Source: Panorpa germanica
Taxonomy: Eukaryota > Arthropoda > Insecta > Mecoptera > Panorpidae
Assembly (NCBI GenBank): GCA_963678705.1
Contig: OY783203.1
Location: 40,734,347 to 40,798,346 of the forward strand
Length of the DNA stretch: 64,000 bases
Direction of reading: 5' to 3'
Program-made: the position numbers and the translations under genes
The notes under the pieces: model-generated
Databases searched by the model: none
The model's input: only the letters and a program-made list of their open reading frames with translations
What the model was told of the DNA's origin: nothing
Shown here: piece after piece, positions 8,376 to 63,600 of the stretch
How positions within the stretch are numbered: position 1 is the stretch's first letter
Layout: each line of letters starts with the position of its first letter

Positions 8376-10389
8376 GTTCCGCAAAGCCATTTCATTTCAT
8401 TCAGAAACTATTAATATAACTTTTCTGTTTATTTATGACATCGTTAAATTTAAATTAAACAAAACGTTTTATTAGTTATATTAGCAATAGAAACAGAAGA
8501 TATTTTTATTTTTATATTTATTTAATAGAACATTGTTAAAAGAAACATTGTTTATATAAAATAGCTCCTCGTGCTCGTATTGTGGCCTCAGGTCTGTGAC
8601 CTTGACCTTCACCTTCACAAGTTTTCAATCATAGAGTCAAGGACGCATTGGCAAACTGTTTAGGTTTAGATTTAGACAATGAAACAAAATTTGATATGTA
8701 CAGGCAGTTCCCAGTAGTAACAACAACATTCAAATAAAGTTGATTAGGATGTATTAGTTTTGGTTAAGGTAGTTACCGTGCTATAATCCTCACCGGTAGA
8801 AAATATAAATTCGTGTGCAATTATAAGTTATATCATAATCTAATTATTCTGAAAATTTGAAGTCGATTGATCATTTCAAACTCTAGATAAAGTTAGGCCT
8901 CTAACACTTTAATTATACGCGGAAAAGAAATCTGTATATTTCTACAAAAATCACCGCGATTCGGACAGAATTTTTTCCTTATCTTTTTTGTTGTAGAACA
9001 TATAGCTGAATGTGGACACACGCAATACGGAATTAATTCTGCAAATGTCATATGCTGTTGTCGGCTTATTTCTTTGGAAGCAGTATGCCATCAGTCGCTG
9101 CATCTCTTTGAACATCCATCCATTCATACTTATCCGCAGTGTGTGCTAAGTAAGTTTTAATATGCGGAATTAAAACTCCGTGGAAAAAAATCCGCGCGGA
9201 ATTATTCGTTAATGGGTTCTCAATCAATGTTAGAATTGTTTGTAATGTGAGCAATGCGAGTAAATGAGAAACAAATACAGTTGACGTGCAGTGATTATCT
9301 CTACAAATCAATATATTTTCCATGAAATTAGAGAATAGAGGGATATATTTTGTGTATGTATAGAAAAATGAAATGATTGACCGTTTAGTTATAATTATTT
9401 ATTAGAAATGTACTTGTCTCGCATATTGTATAACAAACTTTGATAAAAAGAATTTTTACTTAACTATACATCGTTCGACTATAAATTGTGGTACGCAGAC
9501 GCTAAAGACCTTTTAAATCTTATTTTTCGCAGCATAATATTTAAAGATTTTTAAAATCAACATCACATAAATGTTAAATAACTACGTCATGTTTAGTACC
9601 TTACCTTTATCTTACCTTACCTTTAGTACCATATCGTAACTATTTTTTTAAGGGCTTCAAAGCGGTTGGAGGAAGGTAGTGCACACGTAAGGGGTTTGGC
9701 AATAGTGAATGTTTGTAACAATACTGTAAAACATTTATAAATACGAACCATCAGACTTTCACGCAGGTTTGTGTAGTTTTTCTCCGGCTACCTCTAAAAG
9801 AGACCCGCTTTCAAGCTCGCAAGTACGTTCTTAACTACATATTACATTATTTATTCTCAAAATTTCAGCTTTGCTAAAATGACGTAGATCTGGGGGCTCT
9901 GTGATCTTACTCTATAAAATATTGTTCCTCGCTTCTGTATATTCACATTTTGTAAATGGGACGTTGAAATATAAAAAGTATTTTTACTTGTGGAATGTCG
10001 CACAGTCGACACTAGCACAGAGCAGCCAGCATCGCTTTGCTATATTTTTTCAAGTTTTGTTTTTATCATCACAGACAGGTGGCGTTCAATATTTTGTTTT
10101 TGCGTAAATATTAAAATATATTTAATTCAAATAAATTATTGTAAAGTAAACTTTGATTGAAATCTTGTGAATCTTAAAGAAATGTTATTTTAGACGGATA
10201 TTAATAAATCTATTTCTAATTTGTTGATTCTCCATCTTTATTGATATTTAATTATTTTATTTAACATCGGTCCAGGTCTTCGATCTATTATGTTATTTTT
10301 TTTCGCGGCGGAAATATTATTTTTTTTTTCACGCCGGAAATTTAAGTTATTTATTATTTAATTTAATTTTAAGTTAAATTATTTATATA
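8376..10389. other. Non-coding DNA, nothing firm
   Basis: Short reading frames only. 8920-9200 has scattered GCGGAA/TTCCGC words that may be an old TIR element. CGCGGCGGAAATATTAT and CACGCCGGAAATTTAAG sit as a near-duplicate at 10302-10345. Confidence 0.5.
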
Positions 10390-36074: not shown

Positions 36075-36369
36075 TACGAGTATCTAGTTAACATGAAAGT
36101 AACATTTATGTAGTGGATATGTTTAAACGTATTCGCTATATGAATACTAGCGAAAGTTACATTGGTGTTAGCTAACTTATATTTGCCTAATAAACTTATT
36201 CAGTATTATATGTACCTATCAAATTGGAATTCTTAGAAAACGTTTTAACATTTATAAGAAGAATTAAAAATACTATATAATAGAACAAATATACGAATAT
36301 ACATGAACATCTATTGGTCCGAGTAGCGGATTTAACAACAGGCGTGTTTTCTTATGGCTAGAACAATTT

Positions 36370-36655
36370 ATTTTCCGAAATGAAATTGTGACTAGATACA
36401 ATTGATTTTCCGAAATGAAATTGTAATTAGATACAATTGATTTTCCGAAATGAAATTGTGACTAAATACTATTGATTTCGGTGGAAGGTAATTGTGACGG
36501 GATACAATTATTTTGCAGAAAAACAATTGTGTCCAGATACAATTTATTTCACTGAATGCAGTTGTGACTAAATACAAGTGATTTCGCTGTAAGACAATTG
36601 TGACTAGATACACTTGATTTTTCCGAAAGTCAATTGTGATTAGAAACAATTGATT
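36370..36655. repeat. Minisatellite, about 36-bp unit, 7-8 copies
   Basis: Units contain TGATTTTCCGAAATGAAATT and GTGACTAGATACAAT with increasing divergence rightward. It lies in the intergenic space 300 bp after the likely poly(A) site of the MDR-like gene. The units abut without spacers, so it is not a CRISPR array. Confidence 0.85.
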
Positions 36656-37816
36656 TCTGAATTGAAAAAGAAAATGGTTAAAGTATGATTATGGCCTATT
36701 TTCCCTGTTACGCTTGAGGCTTCCACCGGCTTAAATCCGCCACTGACTGGCCTTTTGTTATAATTCTATTAGTTTTTATGTTTACATTATGTCATTCAGG
36801 TCTGTCTTTCAATTGATTTATTGAGGTTGTATACGATTTCTTAATCTCTAAATCTCTAATTAATTTAACTGCCAATTATTGAGACTTAACTTACATAAAA
36901 TTTCATTGAGTAAATTTTAATTAAAGTAATACTTTTAGTATAAGTTATTTTACTAAAACACATTAAAATTTATTCAGAATATATAAAAACAATAATTATG
37001 TCCGCAGCTATGTACGACTACAATTTGACTCACTTTGACTATCTTATAGTAAGAAAAGTTTCAGAAAAGTCTTAAAATTAAGTTGAAATATTGTAACTGT
37101 AATCATTTTAAGTTAAATATATATATTATGTAAAAGATTTACTTTTATTAAAAATTTGTCAAAATTTATAAATATTATTATATGTACAGCTTAAAATTTT
37201 TATTAAACTGAAATGTAAGTGGGTTGTGAAATGATTTGTTTAGGTCGCGATTCCTTAATTTTTTATTGACAATTTATTGACATTTTATTGAATATCAAAA
37301 AATTGATAGAGATATATCTAATTGAAGTTTGATTTTCGCTTTACCGCTCAAGGTAAGTTGTTCACTGGACTGATTTAAGATTTATTAAGATTTGTAGCCT
37401 AATTATTTTAAAATTGAATACGCGGTTTTTCATAAAAAACGAAATCAAAATTTTGTAATTTTAACACGTGCTCTTATGGAGAATACAAATTGATGTGAGA
37501 TTTTTTTTGTTTAAATTCCAAACGTAATGCTGGATAGCAATGATAGTGGGGAAGAGGATAAGGATCGGGAGAGAGAGCGTTTTAAGGAATGTGCTATCGT
37601 CGACATTGCACAGCGAGGTTGATTAGAAGAGGAACCGAAATGTATGCCAATCTCAGTTGTTGTCACAGTAGATTGGCAAAGGGAAAAAATTGTCTTACTA
37701 TGCAGTGTCAAGCTTCTTACCTTGATCTCTCATAAAAAAATATAACGCAGAGTAAGTTTTAACTTGGTACAAGTTAATTCCAAGATTCAATAAGGATAAT
37801 TTTATAGAAATTAAAG

Positions 37817-45305: not shown

Positions 45306-45664
45306 ACTGAAGTGAATGTCTCGTTTGTCGGGTTAGTTTCGAGTTAGAAGCATGGGAGTGGCTGACGATTTTGCTCCCAGCTTCACGCAGAAGCCACAGC
45401 TTCGACAGGAAGATGATGGAAATCGCCTCATCTTCGAATGTCAGCTGCTATCAAAACCCAAACCCGATATTGAATGGTTCCGGAGTGAAACTCTATTGAA
45501 AGATGATACTCGAACGAAGTTTAAGATACAGCCCGTTGGTGAAGACAAATTCTTTGTTGTTCTTGAATTAGATGATGTGGTCGAATCTGATGCAGGCCTT
45601 TACAAGGTCAAAGCAAAAAATAAAATGGGTGAAGTTGCGGCGTCTATCAATCTGAACTTCAGCC
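45306..45664 (+). CDS. bt: Projectin exon 2: 5' UTR end, start codon, Ig1
   Basis: 46 nt of 5' UTR follow the acceptor, then ATG at 45352 (context AAGCATGG). It codes residues 1-104 and ends in phase 1 at CC/GTAAGT. Ig1 shows the B-strand Cys30 (LIFEC), the C-strand Trp42 (IEWF) and the F-strand DAGLYKVKAKN, with Val/Lys where the second disulfide Cys would be. I-set Ig domains of muscle proteins often lack that Cys. Confidence 0.93.
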
Positions 45665-48600
45665 GTAAGTGTCATTTATTTATATTAAGTAGAAATTAAA
45701 TAATATTGCATTTTCTAAATTTCAAAATTTCAACATATTTATGATATTGATTGAACAAATTGATTAGTTAAAAATATAATTTTCAGCGGCTGATGACCCT
45801 AAGGATAGGTAAGCAGATGGCACACTACCTGGACTGGACATTTATATTTGCCATAATTTATACTTACATAAAACACTAATCAAACCACGCATAACCACTG
45901 CTTCTTATTCTTTCTACAATTATTCTTGTCATGGCACAAGGATTTTATTTTGCTTTAATAGCTATGAACATTTAAATGTTGATTTAATTTTTCAAACCTG
46001 TTGTAACAGTTTACGAGTATAATTATGTCAACATTTTTGGCAAGGCAATAATCAGTTGTTGTTTCAAGAATATCTCATACGTCAGTTTATGTAAATTATT
46101 CTCTGTAAAATATCGAAGGCATATGCCACATGCAGTTATTAGAATAAAATGTGACGCAATTTTGATTAATTATAAAGTTTTATTATATGTCACGGACTGC
46201 ATTTTTAAGATTTGTGCCCTTTACTAAAAAATATTATTGGCAAAGTTACTATAAGTTATAAACATAGAGTAATATGTTATTGCTCTAGACAAGCAGTAAT
46301 AAATTCCTGGCCTACATACAAACATCTACAATGTTTATTTTAATTACACTTACACTATAACGCCATCTGCTTCTGCTCTTTTAATATTTTGGCTGCTTTT
46401 AAAAATTCTTATTTTATATTTAACAGTTTGACTCACAAAGCTTTTCGTTTTTTTTTCTTTAGCTGCCGATCAAGCGAAAAAGAGGTGGGTATCCTGCAGT
46501 TTTGCTTTTGTTTTGTTATTAACATAACTGATAAATTTAGCTAACCAATTAGTAAAAACTTACTTTTTGTTAATTATATAGTTTTCCATTTGTTTTAAAA
46601 GTGCGTTAAATAATAGCTTATGTACTATAGACAAATCGACGGTATCGCACCGACTTTCGCGAAGAAACCAGCAATCCGACAAGAGGATGATGGAAAGCGC
46701 TTGCTTTTCGAATGTCGAATCCAGGCAGATCCACGACCTACTGTTGCGTGGTGGCACAACGCCACCCCTGTTACCGATTCACCTCGACACAGGGTAAGTT
46801 CTTTCCTATCCACCCCTATCTTACTTCCAAGAAAACTGTAAACTGGAAACATAGCCGTATGAATAACACGATTACTATGAGGATATCATGGCAGTGATCA
46901 AAAGTTATTTCATATTCATTAATGAAATTCTTCACCAAATACTGTTCATTTATTCTTGATTATTAATGGCCGTGTAAAATATTACTTGATGTTATTGCAG
47001 CTAACGGTCGACAAAGATGGCCACTCGTACTTTGCGTCACTTGAGATTAAAAATGTCACTGTTGAGGATGCTGGCAAATACCGAGTGACGGCAAAGAATG
47101 AGCTGGGAGAGAGCAATGCTACCATCAGCCTGAACTTCGATAGTAAGTGTTTCTATTTCTATTTCTATGTCTATAAATCATATTTGAGCTGACTTATTGT
47201 TTGAGCTAAAATAATTGCAAAAACTAATTTGGCAACCATTATCAAATCAAACTATCAGATCATTAACAGCTCATCAAAATTTATGTAGTAGCTTAAAAGA
47301 AAATGGTTACTCAATGTATAAAAGTAATCAACTAATAACATGATTGCTGCGTAATTATTTATATTTTGTACGCGCCAATTCATATCGTAACCCGCTAAAC
47401 ACAAAATTTACTTTTTAAATACATTTATATAAATTTATTTTTATTTGATTAATAGAATATTAAGCGTCTTTTTTTGATAATTAAAATCATAACAAATCTT
47501 TTCAAAATTGATACCTTTTTAGATTAAATATTACTAGGTTTCGTTTAAGTAAAATGTACCAGTATTTAAGGTATTGTTTATGTGTTGTGCTTAGCGGGAT
47601 CATAGTATTATTATCTTATATATAATATATATATAAAAATATATATTATATATTTCTATTTCAAAATTATCTTTTGGGCATTTTCTTCTAAGCTTCTGTG
47701 TCTTCACCTTACTTCAAGTTTATACATTAACACCTACAAAGTGTCCTTAAAAATTGTACATACTTCTACAACTTTTCTTTCACAATGACAGTTGCTTAAT
47801 ATCAAGAAAGTAAATTAATATTTAGTATGTACATCTTTTTAGCACACCTTGTATTTGTATATTCTTCATTTCACTTTATGTCAGACTCTCTAAATTTCTA
47901 TTTTAATATTATACGAGTATTGTCTTAGGCTTTATGTAAGATAGACTCCCAATACTTAGATTGTTCATTAGCTCTGTTTTTGTACCAAGTCCTTGACCTC
48001 CAGTTGTGGAATCCCCGTCATTGATTCTTAAATTAGTGAAGTTTCAATTAATGATCTGCTCTTCGGATAATTTGGAAAACATTGCAAATGATTTCGTTAA
48101 CTCATTATCAGTGCGTAATTAATTTTATTTTAGAGAAATAATTGCTGAAATATTCAGTACAAGAAATTGGTTGCAAAATATTGTTAGACGCCTTGCTCTT
48201 GGGTTAGTGCTGGTCTACAAAAAAGAATTCTGGTGGAAATAAATCCGCACCGTAAGTTTGTATCAAACTACAGATTTTTCTGTGCGAATTTTAATCCACC
48301 TGCTACAGAATTGTGGTTTTATTTTCGGATATCTTTTTTCGCAGTGCGACCGCAGCCTAAGAAAGAGGCGTCTAAAGGTTCCTTTAACCAATTTTTTTTA
48401 TAGTTAAATAATCTACATACGCTTCATACTATAAACTTTGAAGGCCTGTAACGAAATTTAGGAATTTCGGGGATAAATTTTGTTTTATTAAAATGTAACC
48501 CAAGTAACCTGTTAATGACCTTAATTAAATTGTTTTGCGCCAGATATCTTGAAGGTGTATAACCTAATTAAACAAAATTTAATGAATTTCTAATAAAACA

Positions 48601-54600: not shown

Positions 54601-57600
54601 AAGGAATCCGCGAAGATTAAGATCAGGACTGTTGACATTGAAGAAGAAATATTTGAACTAACACTTGAAATTAAAGTAAGTGCTCATGTAATAAATATTG
54701 CGAGTATCGAAGGTCTCTCTTATTTATTCTAATTCTCCTTTTATTCTAATATGAATTCTAATATTATTGTTGAATGCAATTAGGATCCTACCGGCCCCGA
54801 TGGAGGCACTTACAGATGTAATGTTAAAAACGAGTTTGGGGAAAGTAACGCAAACCTTAATCTGAACATTGAGGCTGAACCAGAACCAGAAGGTGATGGT
54901 CCTACCTTCATTGAAAAACCAAGAATTGTCTCTCAACAAGGAGGCAAACTTGTTATCATGGACTGCAAAGTTCGTGCAGATCCCAGCCCAACAATTGTTT
55001 GGACTCGGGACGGTGTTGTTGTTAAAGAGTCTAGCAAGATAAGCATGAGCATGGACCAAAAAGGAGATGAGTACTACATCAAACTTGAACTTAAAGATCC
55101 TGAGATGGAAGATTCTGGCCTCTATAAGTGCAACATTAAAAATGCACTTGGAGAGCTTAATGCTAATCTCACACTAAACATCGAAAGTATGTCGTTACTT
55201 TTCAATCTTAAAATTATAATATTGTATTCATATTCCTTTCTATGCCTTCATAATAATAATTGTTCCAAATTTCAGTCGTTCCTGTCATTAAGGAAAAACC
55301 AAAGGTTATTAAGATCGTGAAGAAACGTACCGTCATTGTTGAATGCCACGTTCTTAGTAAGTTTGCTCCTGATTGTACCTGGTTCAAAGAAAATACCGCC
55401 GTTAAGGAAGATTCTCGAAGAACAGTTTCTGTAGAACAAGTCCGGGATGTAAGGAATATTTTGTTAGTTTTGTTGTATATCATTTTCACTAGATATTGAT
55501 TTATTTATTGTTTGTTAACAGGGAGAATTCGCCATTAAATTGGAAATATCTCAAGTTACTAAAACAGATAGAGGTTCATACAAATTAGTTGCTCGCAACG
55601 AGAAAGGTGAAGCTACTTCTCAAGTTGTAGAGGTCACAGAAATACCAGAAGCTGAAGAGAAGAAAGGAGAAAAACCAAAGATTGCCAAGGGATTATCTGA
55701 TATTGTAAGCATCTTCACTTACTTAAATTGTTCATTGTTATTTATTTGGGACAATATTTAAAATTTTGATTAATATTCTTTAGAGCGTTGAGGAGAGCAA
55801 CTTAGCAGAGTTTGTCTGCTCCCTTAAGACTGTTGATAAGAAAATTAAAGTTACTTGGTACAAAAATACTACAATTATCAAGGAATCTACTGTCATTAAA
55901 ACAACATTCGATGGTAGTGTTGCTCGTCTTAGCATTTCCAACACAAAGACTGAGCATGTCGCAAGTTACCGTGTTGTCTTTGCCAATGAGTTCGGTGAAG
56001 ATGAATCTTCTGCCAAATTAACAGTCATTGAGAAGAAGAAGGATGAGAAGGTAACTTGTGCAATTATTTATTTGCTTTACTGTAAGATTACTTACCTTGT
56101 AAGATGTTCTTAATTTAATGGTTTCTTTTTGCAGAAGAAGAAGGAAGAAGAGGAAGAAAAGAAGAAGGTTGAAGAGAAAAAGAAGATCGAAGAGGAAAAG
56201 AAGAAGGTAGAAGAAGAAAAGAAGAAGGTAGAGGAAAAAAAGAAGATAGAAGAAAAGAAGGTAGAAGAGAAAAAGATCGAGGAGAAAAAGGCAGAGGAAA
56301 AGAAGGTGGAAGAAAAGAAACTAGCAGAAAAGAAGGTTGAAGAAAAGAAAATTGAAGAGAAAAAGGCAGAAGAAAAGAAAAAGATAGAAGAGAAGAAGGT
56401 TGAAGAAAAGAAACCAGAAGAAAAGAAACCTCTTACAAAGAAACCTGTAGAAAAACCAGAGGAAGCTAAGCCAGAAGAAAGAAAGCTGAAACCTGGAGTA
56501 AGAAAACCACCACCTGAGGTAATGTTTCATAACAATAATAGCAATAATTATATGTTTTTCATTTCAATGTTTCAATATTTTCTAAACTACTCGTATTTAA
56601 AATATTAATCAGAATTTTATGTTATCTTTTATAAAAAAAAGTTTCAATTTTTTTTTAGAAGTGAATTTATTTATACTTAACATTTTTTTCTTCACTAATA
56701 TTTGTTAATTTTTTATATTTTCTCTTTATGTTTTCATTAAGTCAAAGAAAAGGCACAAGATTGTGCATTTCCCAGATGTTAATAAATTAACTTAATATTC
56801 ATTATATTTGTTTTACAAATTGTATTGTTAATAATAATAATGTGGCTAACATATAAACATCAACAGTCCGTTGAACCCAGCTTCGTAGAGGAAGCAGTCA
56901 GTGAACCAGAGGAAGAAAGTGAATCAGAAGAGTCAGAGGAGGTACTTTTGTATTTAATGATCACTAAACTATTTTGTTACTAAAATAATTACCTAACATG
57001 CCTCTTGCAAATAGAAGGCTTTATTGATAAAATGCTTTACATCAGCTTTATTTAAGATAAAAGCACATTGAACATCAAAATCACTTTCATGGCTACTTTC
57101 TTTTAGGCGAGAAATGAAATAGCTAATATATTTTATACTCATTCAGGATAGATAGATTTTAGAATGAAGTAATACAACTTATGTTAAAAATAATGTTGGT
57201 AAATTAGAGATTATATTCATAAACTTATAAATAGCGAAGGAGAAATATGTATATAGAGTATATAACTTTATAGTATTTTATAATTTGTTATACAAGTTTG
57301 AACTTGATTGCATAATTGAACATAAATAATGTGTGATCTCAGCAGCTCACATTGGAACCGTATACGCGCGTATCTTTGTCGCACGACTATGTCTGTTGTT
57401 TTCTGACGTTATAAATCCGAAAAGGACCAACATAGGCGGCAAAGATTCATGAGATTTGCAAGATGTTTTTTCTCGTTTTACATTAAGTCTTTCAAATTAC
57501 AAATATATTTTAAAACTCTCTGCTATTTATATATTTTGCACGTAAATGTAGTATTTATGTAAAGATTACATATTACTGCATAATACTGTTCAGTGGGATG

Positions 57601-60600: not shown

Positions 60601-63600
60601 AAATATTTTAGTTAGGAAATTGATGTTATAATTTAAAATATTGATAAACATTTTTTATGTAATGTTTACGTCTTATGTTTAGCGGGTCTATATTATAATA
60701 TATGTCTTAGAATAGATTTGTTTTATATCAATATATTACAGATTGAGGAAACTCGCAGTGAATCCAGAAGGTCCTCAATCATTGAAACTTCAAAAACAAC
60801 AACAAAGGTAAAACTAACTTTATATAACTTTTATAGTTTAGTATTAGTAGCGGTAAACATTCAAGTAGTTTGATCTTTATCAGCTTATCAGGTATTAAGC
60901 ATTTAATAAACACGTGTGATATCCCAGTTTGAATTACATATAAAATAATAATCGTTATGTAATAGACCTGTCTTATTTCTTCAGTAGAATCTATCAACCA
61001 GATTCACAATCAGGAAAAGTTTAGTTTATCAATCAGTTTACTTTTTGGAAAATAGTATCATCTTGTGTTACTGCATTGCCAAATATTCAAGTCTCAGTAA
61101 AATTTATACGAACCAATGATGGATAGGACATACACAAAATTTAAAAATGAGGCAGGTCAAAATTGCTGTAGATATTTTTTCCCTTTGAAATTAGTACCTA
61201 ATTTTGAAATATCCTGTTTAGTAGACTTAGAGTAACGCACACGTTACACAAGCAAATGTTTACTACACACAAATATTTAGAGTTCACCAAACTAAATGTA
61301 TTATATTATTTAGTCCAAACTCGAAACAAATCACACGGAAGCTGAAGAAATTCCAAAACTTAAACCTACAGCACGTGGTCAAGCCGCACAGGTATATTAT
61401 CATTCGGACATCTTGAATATTCACTATAAAGTGATACTACACTAACTGTGTCATACTGAAAACACAAAACTACTTTTTTTCGTTACATTTTACAAAACAC
61501 CACTTTAATTACTGACGTTTTCTTATGGGAATGATCAGACGTTCGAAACATGTATATTAAAGCCTGCACGTTTATAATAATGACTCTCTGCCAAACACTT
61601 GCGTCTATATTATAAGTACGCTATTGTAAGATATGTTATAAATAAAACAGTTTATGCAAAATTTAAATAATATTCCTATAAGAAAGTGTCAAAATACACA
61701 AAACATAAGTGTTAATTTACAATAATTCTAATTTGTTTCTAAATTGTTGCATGCACAGGTTGATGATCCTAAACCAAAAACACTTAACGAAGTTCATGAT
61801 AAAAAGGATATTAGACCTCCTGAACCTAAAGATGATCGTGTAAAAACACCAGAACGTAAACGTGATTCAGTTAAAGCTCCGGAACCTAAAGTTGATTCAG
61901 TTAAGGTTCCTGAACCTAAATCAGATTCCGTTAAAGTACCGGAAGCTAAAGTTGATTCAGTAAAGGTTCCGGATCGTAAACCAGATTCTGTTAAAGTACC
62001 CGAACCTAAAATTGATTCAGTTAAGGTTCCTGAACCTAAACCAGATTCCGTTAAAGTACCGGAACCTAAAGTTGATTCAGTTAAGGTTCCAGAACGTAAG
62101 CCGGATTCTGTTAAAGTACCCGAACCTAAAACTGATAAAATTAGCGTTCCTGAACGAAAGGTTTCTGAACCAAAAGTTGAACCTGCCAAGGTTCCTGAGC
62201 CTAAAGCTGAAAAGGCTGTACCTGAACGTAAAATTGGTTCCGTTAAAGCTCCAGAACCTCTGGATAATTCAATTAAGGTTCCTGAGCGAAAAATTGATTC
62301 TATAAAAGCTCCGGAGCCTAAAGGTGATTCAATAAAGGTTCCCGAACGTAAAGTTGAATCTATTAAGATTAATGAACGTAAAGATGAGTTTATTAAAGTT
62401 CCGGATCGCAAAGATTCATTAAAGGTTACAGAAAATAAAAAAGACTCTGTAAACGAGATTTCTAAGCCTTTAATAATCACACCAGACACACAAAATGATA
62501 CACTCACACCAACACCTAAGACACCTAATCAACTCACACCAGAACCCAAGGTAACTAACAAAAATAACAATTACATATTTATTCATTGTTGTTAATTTAA
62601 ATATGTTTAAATGTTTTTTAATTGAACCATTATCGTAACATGTAATTATACATTTGTAACTAACAAATTGAACAGTTTCCAAAATCTGTTCTTTTATGTT
62701 GTATTATAATGTGATGTTTTCTTTTTCATAAACCCCTTGCCCCATTCGGCATGTTCGTCCATTTTGCCCACATGATAATGTTCCTGTTTTACCATCTGAA
62801 TGATTCCCCATATAGAAAGAAGAAGAGAAGCTGACGAACAACAAAGTGGCAAAGGTATGTTACTTTAAAATACTCTTAACCTATCATATACTTACGAATT
62901 GATTACGCTTTAAGAAAATATATGCCTATCTAAATCTCCCGTGAAATTTAGTGGACTAGTGATTTACTAGTAGCATTGAATATAATATTAAATTAACCCC
63001 TGTAACGTATAAAAATAGCCTGGACAACCTGAAACTTTCCCCAAATTGAAAAAATCAAGTCTGCAACGGCAAGAGGTTAAATCTGACTCTTTCTCCAATA
63101 TTCAATTGAAGCCAGTTGTACGCGATAAGGTTGAACCAAGTAAAGCAGAAAATGGTGAAGTGGCACCGAAGGTAACCGTGACTTTCAACCGTGTATTGGA
63201 AAGCTATTTCTTTGTCTCTGTTTCTATTTGTAATCTATGATCTAATCTCTTGTATATCTTCGTACATATCTACCTATTTCTATAATCTCTTCATTCATGT
63301 AGTTCCAGGAAGCCCAGATGACGTGTATCTTTCTCTCTCTTGTGAACTACATTTCTCTAGCTTTTAAATAATAATTGTTTATTCTACAATATCTCTTATT
63401 AATTATTTTATATCTCTGTTATCTACTTTATCTTTCTCTTTGATTCTACATCTGTTTCTAGTCTTGTGTAAATAATCTCTTTCAATGGACCATTCTATAT
63501 ATCAAACATTTTGAGTATGCTCGGACTATCTTCTGATTTTCTCACCGATCATATTCATTATTGGTTACTCAGAACTAATACCAAACTGTTTATGGGATGG

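Follow-up and report, generated by a model that had tools for sequence, protein, structure and literature searches.

Homologous mutually exclusive exons are described as neighbours of similar length and sequence that share a reading frame, and the cited passages of the same work give three mechanisms that make such exons exclusive: a frame shift with NMD, incompatibility of U2- and U12-type sites, and branch-point proximity (PMC5740500). In insect muscle, the Drosophila troponin T gene (upheld) uses exon 10A in IFM and TDT and exon 10B in other striated muscles (PMC13322953). For projectin itself, the splicing described in the cited passages on Lepidoptera concerns the PEVK region, with small exons of 24 and 33 nt in Manduca (PMC3835035). 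In LAR-type receptor phosphatases the mini-exons meA and meB retune an Ig-domain region (PMC12598525), and exons of at most 30 nt are termed microexons (PMC7821500).

Here we describe two predicted exons of 22 nt each, A and B, which fall within this size definition and lie between the exons for the first two Ig domains of projectin in Panorpa germanica. Like the frame-shift pairs of PMC5740500, A and B are neighbours of equal length in the same frame whose joint inclusion shifts that frame; unlike those pairs, for which the criterion was junction reads that lead from each exon past its partner, with joining reads absent or frame-shifted, they are predicted from DNA, and at 22 nt their similarity scores are weak. 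They share with upheld 10A/10B the either-or arrangement in an insect muscle gene, but the muscle-type use of the upheld exons is established while that of A and B is a guess, and the proteins and presumably the exon sizes differ (PMC13322953). PEVK splicing involves the same gene, its N-terminal half and small exons, yet there exons are included or skipped to adjust the length of the spring that separates Ig8 from Ig9, whereas A and B would alter charge at constant length between Ig1 and Ig2 (PMC3835035). The mini-exons meA and meB are likewise very short and sit at an Ig-domain region, but they are either included or not, in an extracellular neuronal receptor, whereas one of A and B is required (PMC12598525).

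Organization of the projectin locus

The stretch of DNA analysed (C21:40734347-40798346, 64,000 nt; the window) was searched in the context of a genome of 464 Mb in 249 contigs. Its N-terminal projectin exons are arranged as follows, in window coordinates.

45352 to 45664, forward strand: exon E1, the projectin start codon and Ig1, leaving 1 base of a split codon (translation; I-set domain match)
45665 to 45786, forward strand: intron 1, 122 nt (GT-AG ends from sequence)
45787 to 45808, forward strand: predicted microexon A, 22 nt, PADDPKD(R) (translation, splice scoring, frame joining)
45809 to 46462, forward strand: A-B intron, 654 nt (length by subtraction)
46463 to 46484, forward strand: predicted microexon B, 22 nt, PADQAKK(R), its acceptor with a long T tract (translation, splice scoring, frame joining)
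46485 to 46630, forward strand: intron 3, 146 nt (GT-AG ends from sequence)
46631 to 46793, forward strand: exon E3, the end of the hinge and the first half of Ig2 (translation, splice scoring)
47001 to 47142, forward strand: exon E4, the second half of Ig2 (splice scoring, exon joining)

E1, the first coding exon, is 313 nt long with its ATG at 45352, and intron 1 runs into a stop if it is retained. The interval between E1 and E3 spans 966 nt and holds both A and B, each with AG before and GT after it. The host gene is projectin: the spliced Ig1-A-Ig2 protein contains two I-set stretches, PEVK-like frames lie 3' of the N-terminal Ig exons inside the window, and farther downstream on the same contig there are I-set matches and, by motif search, frames resembling Fn3 and one kinase frame that contains HLDIKPEN, giving the N-terminal Ig tract, PEVK region, Ig/Fn3 repeats and kinase of that protein. 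A DNA search of the E1-E3 region against its own genome returned one full-length match, the window locus itself, so that the region is single-copy; the sole other match, at 77%, covers 74 bases of intron 1 and lies on contig C7. Rfam gave no matches within the window.

Several repeats accompany the gene. Upstream of projectin, 36358-36667 is a tandem repeat with periods of 35 nt and 106 nt (2.6 to 8.8 copies), and a K/E-rich coding repeat of the EEKK type, with periods of 15 to 75 nt, occupies 56133-56428 on the forward strand, in a frame after the N-terminal Ig domains. The PEVK-type open frame at 61732-62595 (forward strand) carries a tandem repeat of 30 nt, or 10 aa, around DSVKVPEPK in the region 61849-62363, with 9.5 copies at 73% matches in 61852-62136. 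This repeat may be unusual, since the cited passages report insect projectin PEVK regions to be without repeats except for a short one in honeybee (PMC3835035).

Consequences of A and B for the reading frame

The initial annotation had placed the two 22-nt microexons at 45787-45808 and 46463-46484 and assigned both the phase of one base in and two out, with a common PAD start followed by DPKD in one and QAKK in the other. The coordinates proved exact on re-reading, and translation returned the same residues. Each exon divides into 2+18+2 bases, completing the codon begun in E1 and leaving two bases for E3, in keeping with the assigned phase. The predicted effects on the frame were borne out in the exons joined through Ig4, the extent of the frame test. 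When a single one of them is included, be it A or B, the frame stays open through Ig4, for 427 codons in each case. Inclusion of both, expected to reach a TGA about 20 codons on, meets TGA at 46688-46690, 19 codons into E3, so that the product stops at residue 139; counted from the first base of this TGA, the rest of E3 is 106 nt long. Skipping both, expected to break the Ig2 frame, leads to a stop at 47002-47004 in E4, at residue 160. As A and B are each 1 mod 3 long, exactly one of them is needed for an in-frame Ig2 and the rest of projectin, and projectin is encoded only by transcripts with exactly one of the two.

Equal length, the same phase and consecutive positions between E1 and E3 are among the features of a homologous mutually exclusive pair, and A and B show these three. 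Their interpretation as a predicted pair of this kind is partly supported, with strong backing from the reading frame. From the sequence, phase, frame consequences and rarity of the two exons we infer that A and B are probably alternative versions of one short exon, probably duplicated, that would be spliced in a mutually exclusive manner. Inclusion of one would give in-frame projectin, and double inclusion or double skipping an early stop; RNAs of the latter two kinds would encode no more than a fragment about the size of Ig1, and they are expected to be degraded by NMD.

Rarity of the exon pair

A simple splice matrix built on generic frequencies served to score candidates of the form AG-N22-GT, the score floor being the weaker of A and B at each site. 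On both strands of the window this floor left two 22-nt candidates, A and B themselves; at a looser floor there were three on the forward strand and none on the reverse, the third lying outside the E1-E3 interval. Among 3000 Markov-simulated introns of 950 nt there were seven candidates, one of them stop-free. In the 464 Mb genome a loose pattern (PAD start, 22 nt, AG and GT at the borders) had 13 matches on both strands, the same number as its reversed control; A and B account for two of these, 676 nt apart. Two others, at C20:3710902-3710927 and 3719526-3719551 on the reverse strand, are identical to each other and 8.6 kb apart, possibly a local duplication. A narrower pattern, tailored to A and B together, had three genome matches, and its control had none.

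The idea that A or B merely resembles its partner by chance, as part of an intron, would be helped by the post hoc nature of these comparisons, in which floors and patterns were chosen after the pair had been seen. The counts nevertheless make this explanation extremely improbable: judged by the 11 remaining loose-pattern matches, ~1e-5 matches would be expected by chance within the 966 nt between E1 and E3, no simulated candidate had more than two of seven residues in common with A (0 of 3000 introns with at least three), and two matches to the joint pattern with up to two mismatches occurred in 0 of 100 window shuffles. The A/B pair is a real sequence feature, far beyond chance.

Splice sites and possible routes to exclusivity

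The two exons differ in the strength of their splice sites. A scored 0.67 at its acceptor and 4.95 at its donor, B 6.28 and 6.22; the acceptor of E3 is weak as well, at 0.33. Because its sites are the stronger, B may be the default exon and A the regulated choice, in which case an activator of A or a repressor of B might be required. The weak acceptor of A could also fit a vestigial duplicate, with B (or A) no longer spliced and its partner constitutive. We regard this as unlikely, as GT-AG sites and open frames are intact in both exons, and the acceptor of A is not weaker than that of E3, an exon required anyway. The strong sites of B, together with a TGA that in A+B RNAs precedes the following exon junction by 106 nt, would suit an arrangement in which A is constitutive and B a regulated poison exon, so that A+B RNAs are degraded and the level of projectin is tuned, not its sequence. 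A poison exon needs no coding match, however, and B has the length, the phase and the PAD..K.R residues of a good stand-alone linker, which makes this reading quite unlikely. Use of an acceptor farther upstream would extend B to 58 nt (46427-46484), but this longer form would, by eye, read into a TGA at once and was rejected.

Returning to mutually exclusive splicing of A and B, a frame shift with NMD is the best reading of how exclusivity would arise, being the sole fitting mechanism among the three in the cited passages (PMC5740500). It remains because the sites are GT-AG without a U12 branch point and the A-B intron, at 654 nt, is too long for branch-point proximity. The branch-point-like motifs CCTTAA, CTTAAC and CTTGAC are absent from the E1-E3 interval. 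U12-type incompatibility was rejected; RTATCC occurs once, at 46489, the fifth base of intron 3, and was taken as a coincidence.

Competing RNA structure is a possible controller of the A/B choice. Pairing between the introns does not go beyond shuffles and lends no support to exclusive splicing: of 100 shuffles, 79 attained the duplex energy of introns 1 and 2, 10 that of introns 2 and 3, and 83 that of introns 1 and 3. As for regulator motifs, YGCTTY, a Muscleblind-like motif, is mildly enriched, with five copies where 1.6 are expected (P 0.0135), and as many copies occur in 3 of 211 window pieces of equal size; this enrichment is not significant across the six motif classes scanned, and neither TGCTT (P 0.089) nor YGCY (P 0.21) is enriched. 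Putative control of the choice by muscle type is plausible.

Origin of the exons and related sequences

A and B are identical at 13 of 22 bases and at four of seven residues, plus the split R, although at 22 nt similarity scores are weak. They are likely to share a common origin in an old tandem duplication. Alignments of their flanks do not rise above shuffles, and the same holds for an alignment through both exons (score 33); any homology of the DNA outside the exons is putative, a point against the reading as a duplicated pair. The fly linker, which we assume to read PAD-E-P-K-E, resembles A; if this is right, A would be the older or commoner form.

Among the genome-contig and viral-contig collections scanned, the Ig1 exon had no matches. 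The Ig2 exon had none in viral contigs and a single one in genome contigs, in a Victivallis MAG, which is not projectin: positions 10001-10120 of that contig show 40% identity to part of projectin Ig2 and represent a bacterial Ig-like domain or contamination. A degenerate microexon pattern matched 32 viral-contig stretches, which we take as chance, because tblastn of Ig1-Ig2 against 43 loci had its matches confined to ten other loci and matched none of them.

The hinge between Ig1 and Ig2

The alternative linkers are PADDPKDR with A and PADQAKKR with B, so that the choice would exchange D-P-K-D for Q-A-K-K in the Ig1-Ig2 hinge. The initial annotation had described a swap from acidic to basic. 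The charge reversal stands, with net charge going from -1 to +2 over residues 105-112, but it comes down to three substitutions in eight residues (D108Q, P109A and D111K), which shift net charge by +3 and remove one proline. As the Pfam Ig2 match starts at residue 119 and the last strand of Ig1 ends, by eye, near residue 103, the hinge that holds the swap is about 15 residues long. Among solved relatives, a titin Ig tandem scored best (3b43, E 1.1e-30). Since Ig1-2 is not an epitope in the cited passages, it is a guess that the swap would affect contacts with the Z-disc or with Sallimus.

Discussion

The literature examined on projectin and on mutually exclusive exons holds no description of the A/B pair in the passages concerned, and it is quite possible that the pair is annotated in insects yet unremarked. 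The cited passages of PMC12063666, PMC8534295, PMC9886281 and PMC11081514 do not describe it. Linkers of 5 to 46 residues are mentioned in the study of PEVK splicing in Lepidoptera, in which Manduca N-terminal cDNAs were sequenced and whose cited passages mention no variant of the Ig1-Ig2 linker (PMC3835035). This counts against a second linker form, as does the statement that alternative splicing of projectin is 'only minor' (PMC12063666). Elsewhere, projectin is listed among genes with fibre-type-specific isoforms (PMC8534295). Standard aligners often overlook microexons (PMC7821500), and A and B products, being equal in length, would be indistinguishable on gels and in gel-based RT-PCR.

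A more far-reaching reading is that the pair forms a charge switch, regulated according to muscle type and common to many insects, in the hinge between the first two Ig domains, where the molecule comes near the Z-disc and overlaps with Sallimus. It would have been overlooked because the isoforms are equal in length and read aligners tend to lose exons of 22 nt. We hold this reading as tentative and rather doubtful.

Projectin splicing, in the passages of the literature examined, is splicing of the PEVK spring, and the A/B pair would add a further switch, close to the Z-disc end, that leaves length unchanged. If true, this switch would tune projectin in a different manner, through charge and the stiffness of the hinge, and the pair, if real, would be a compact example of exclusivity enforced by the reading frame.
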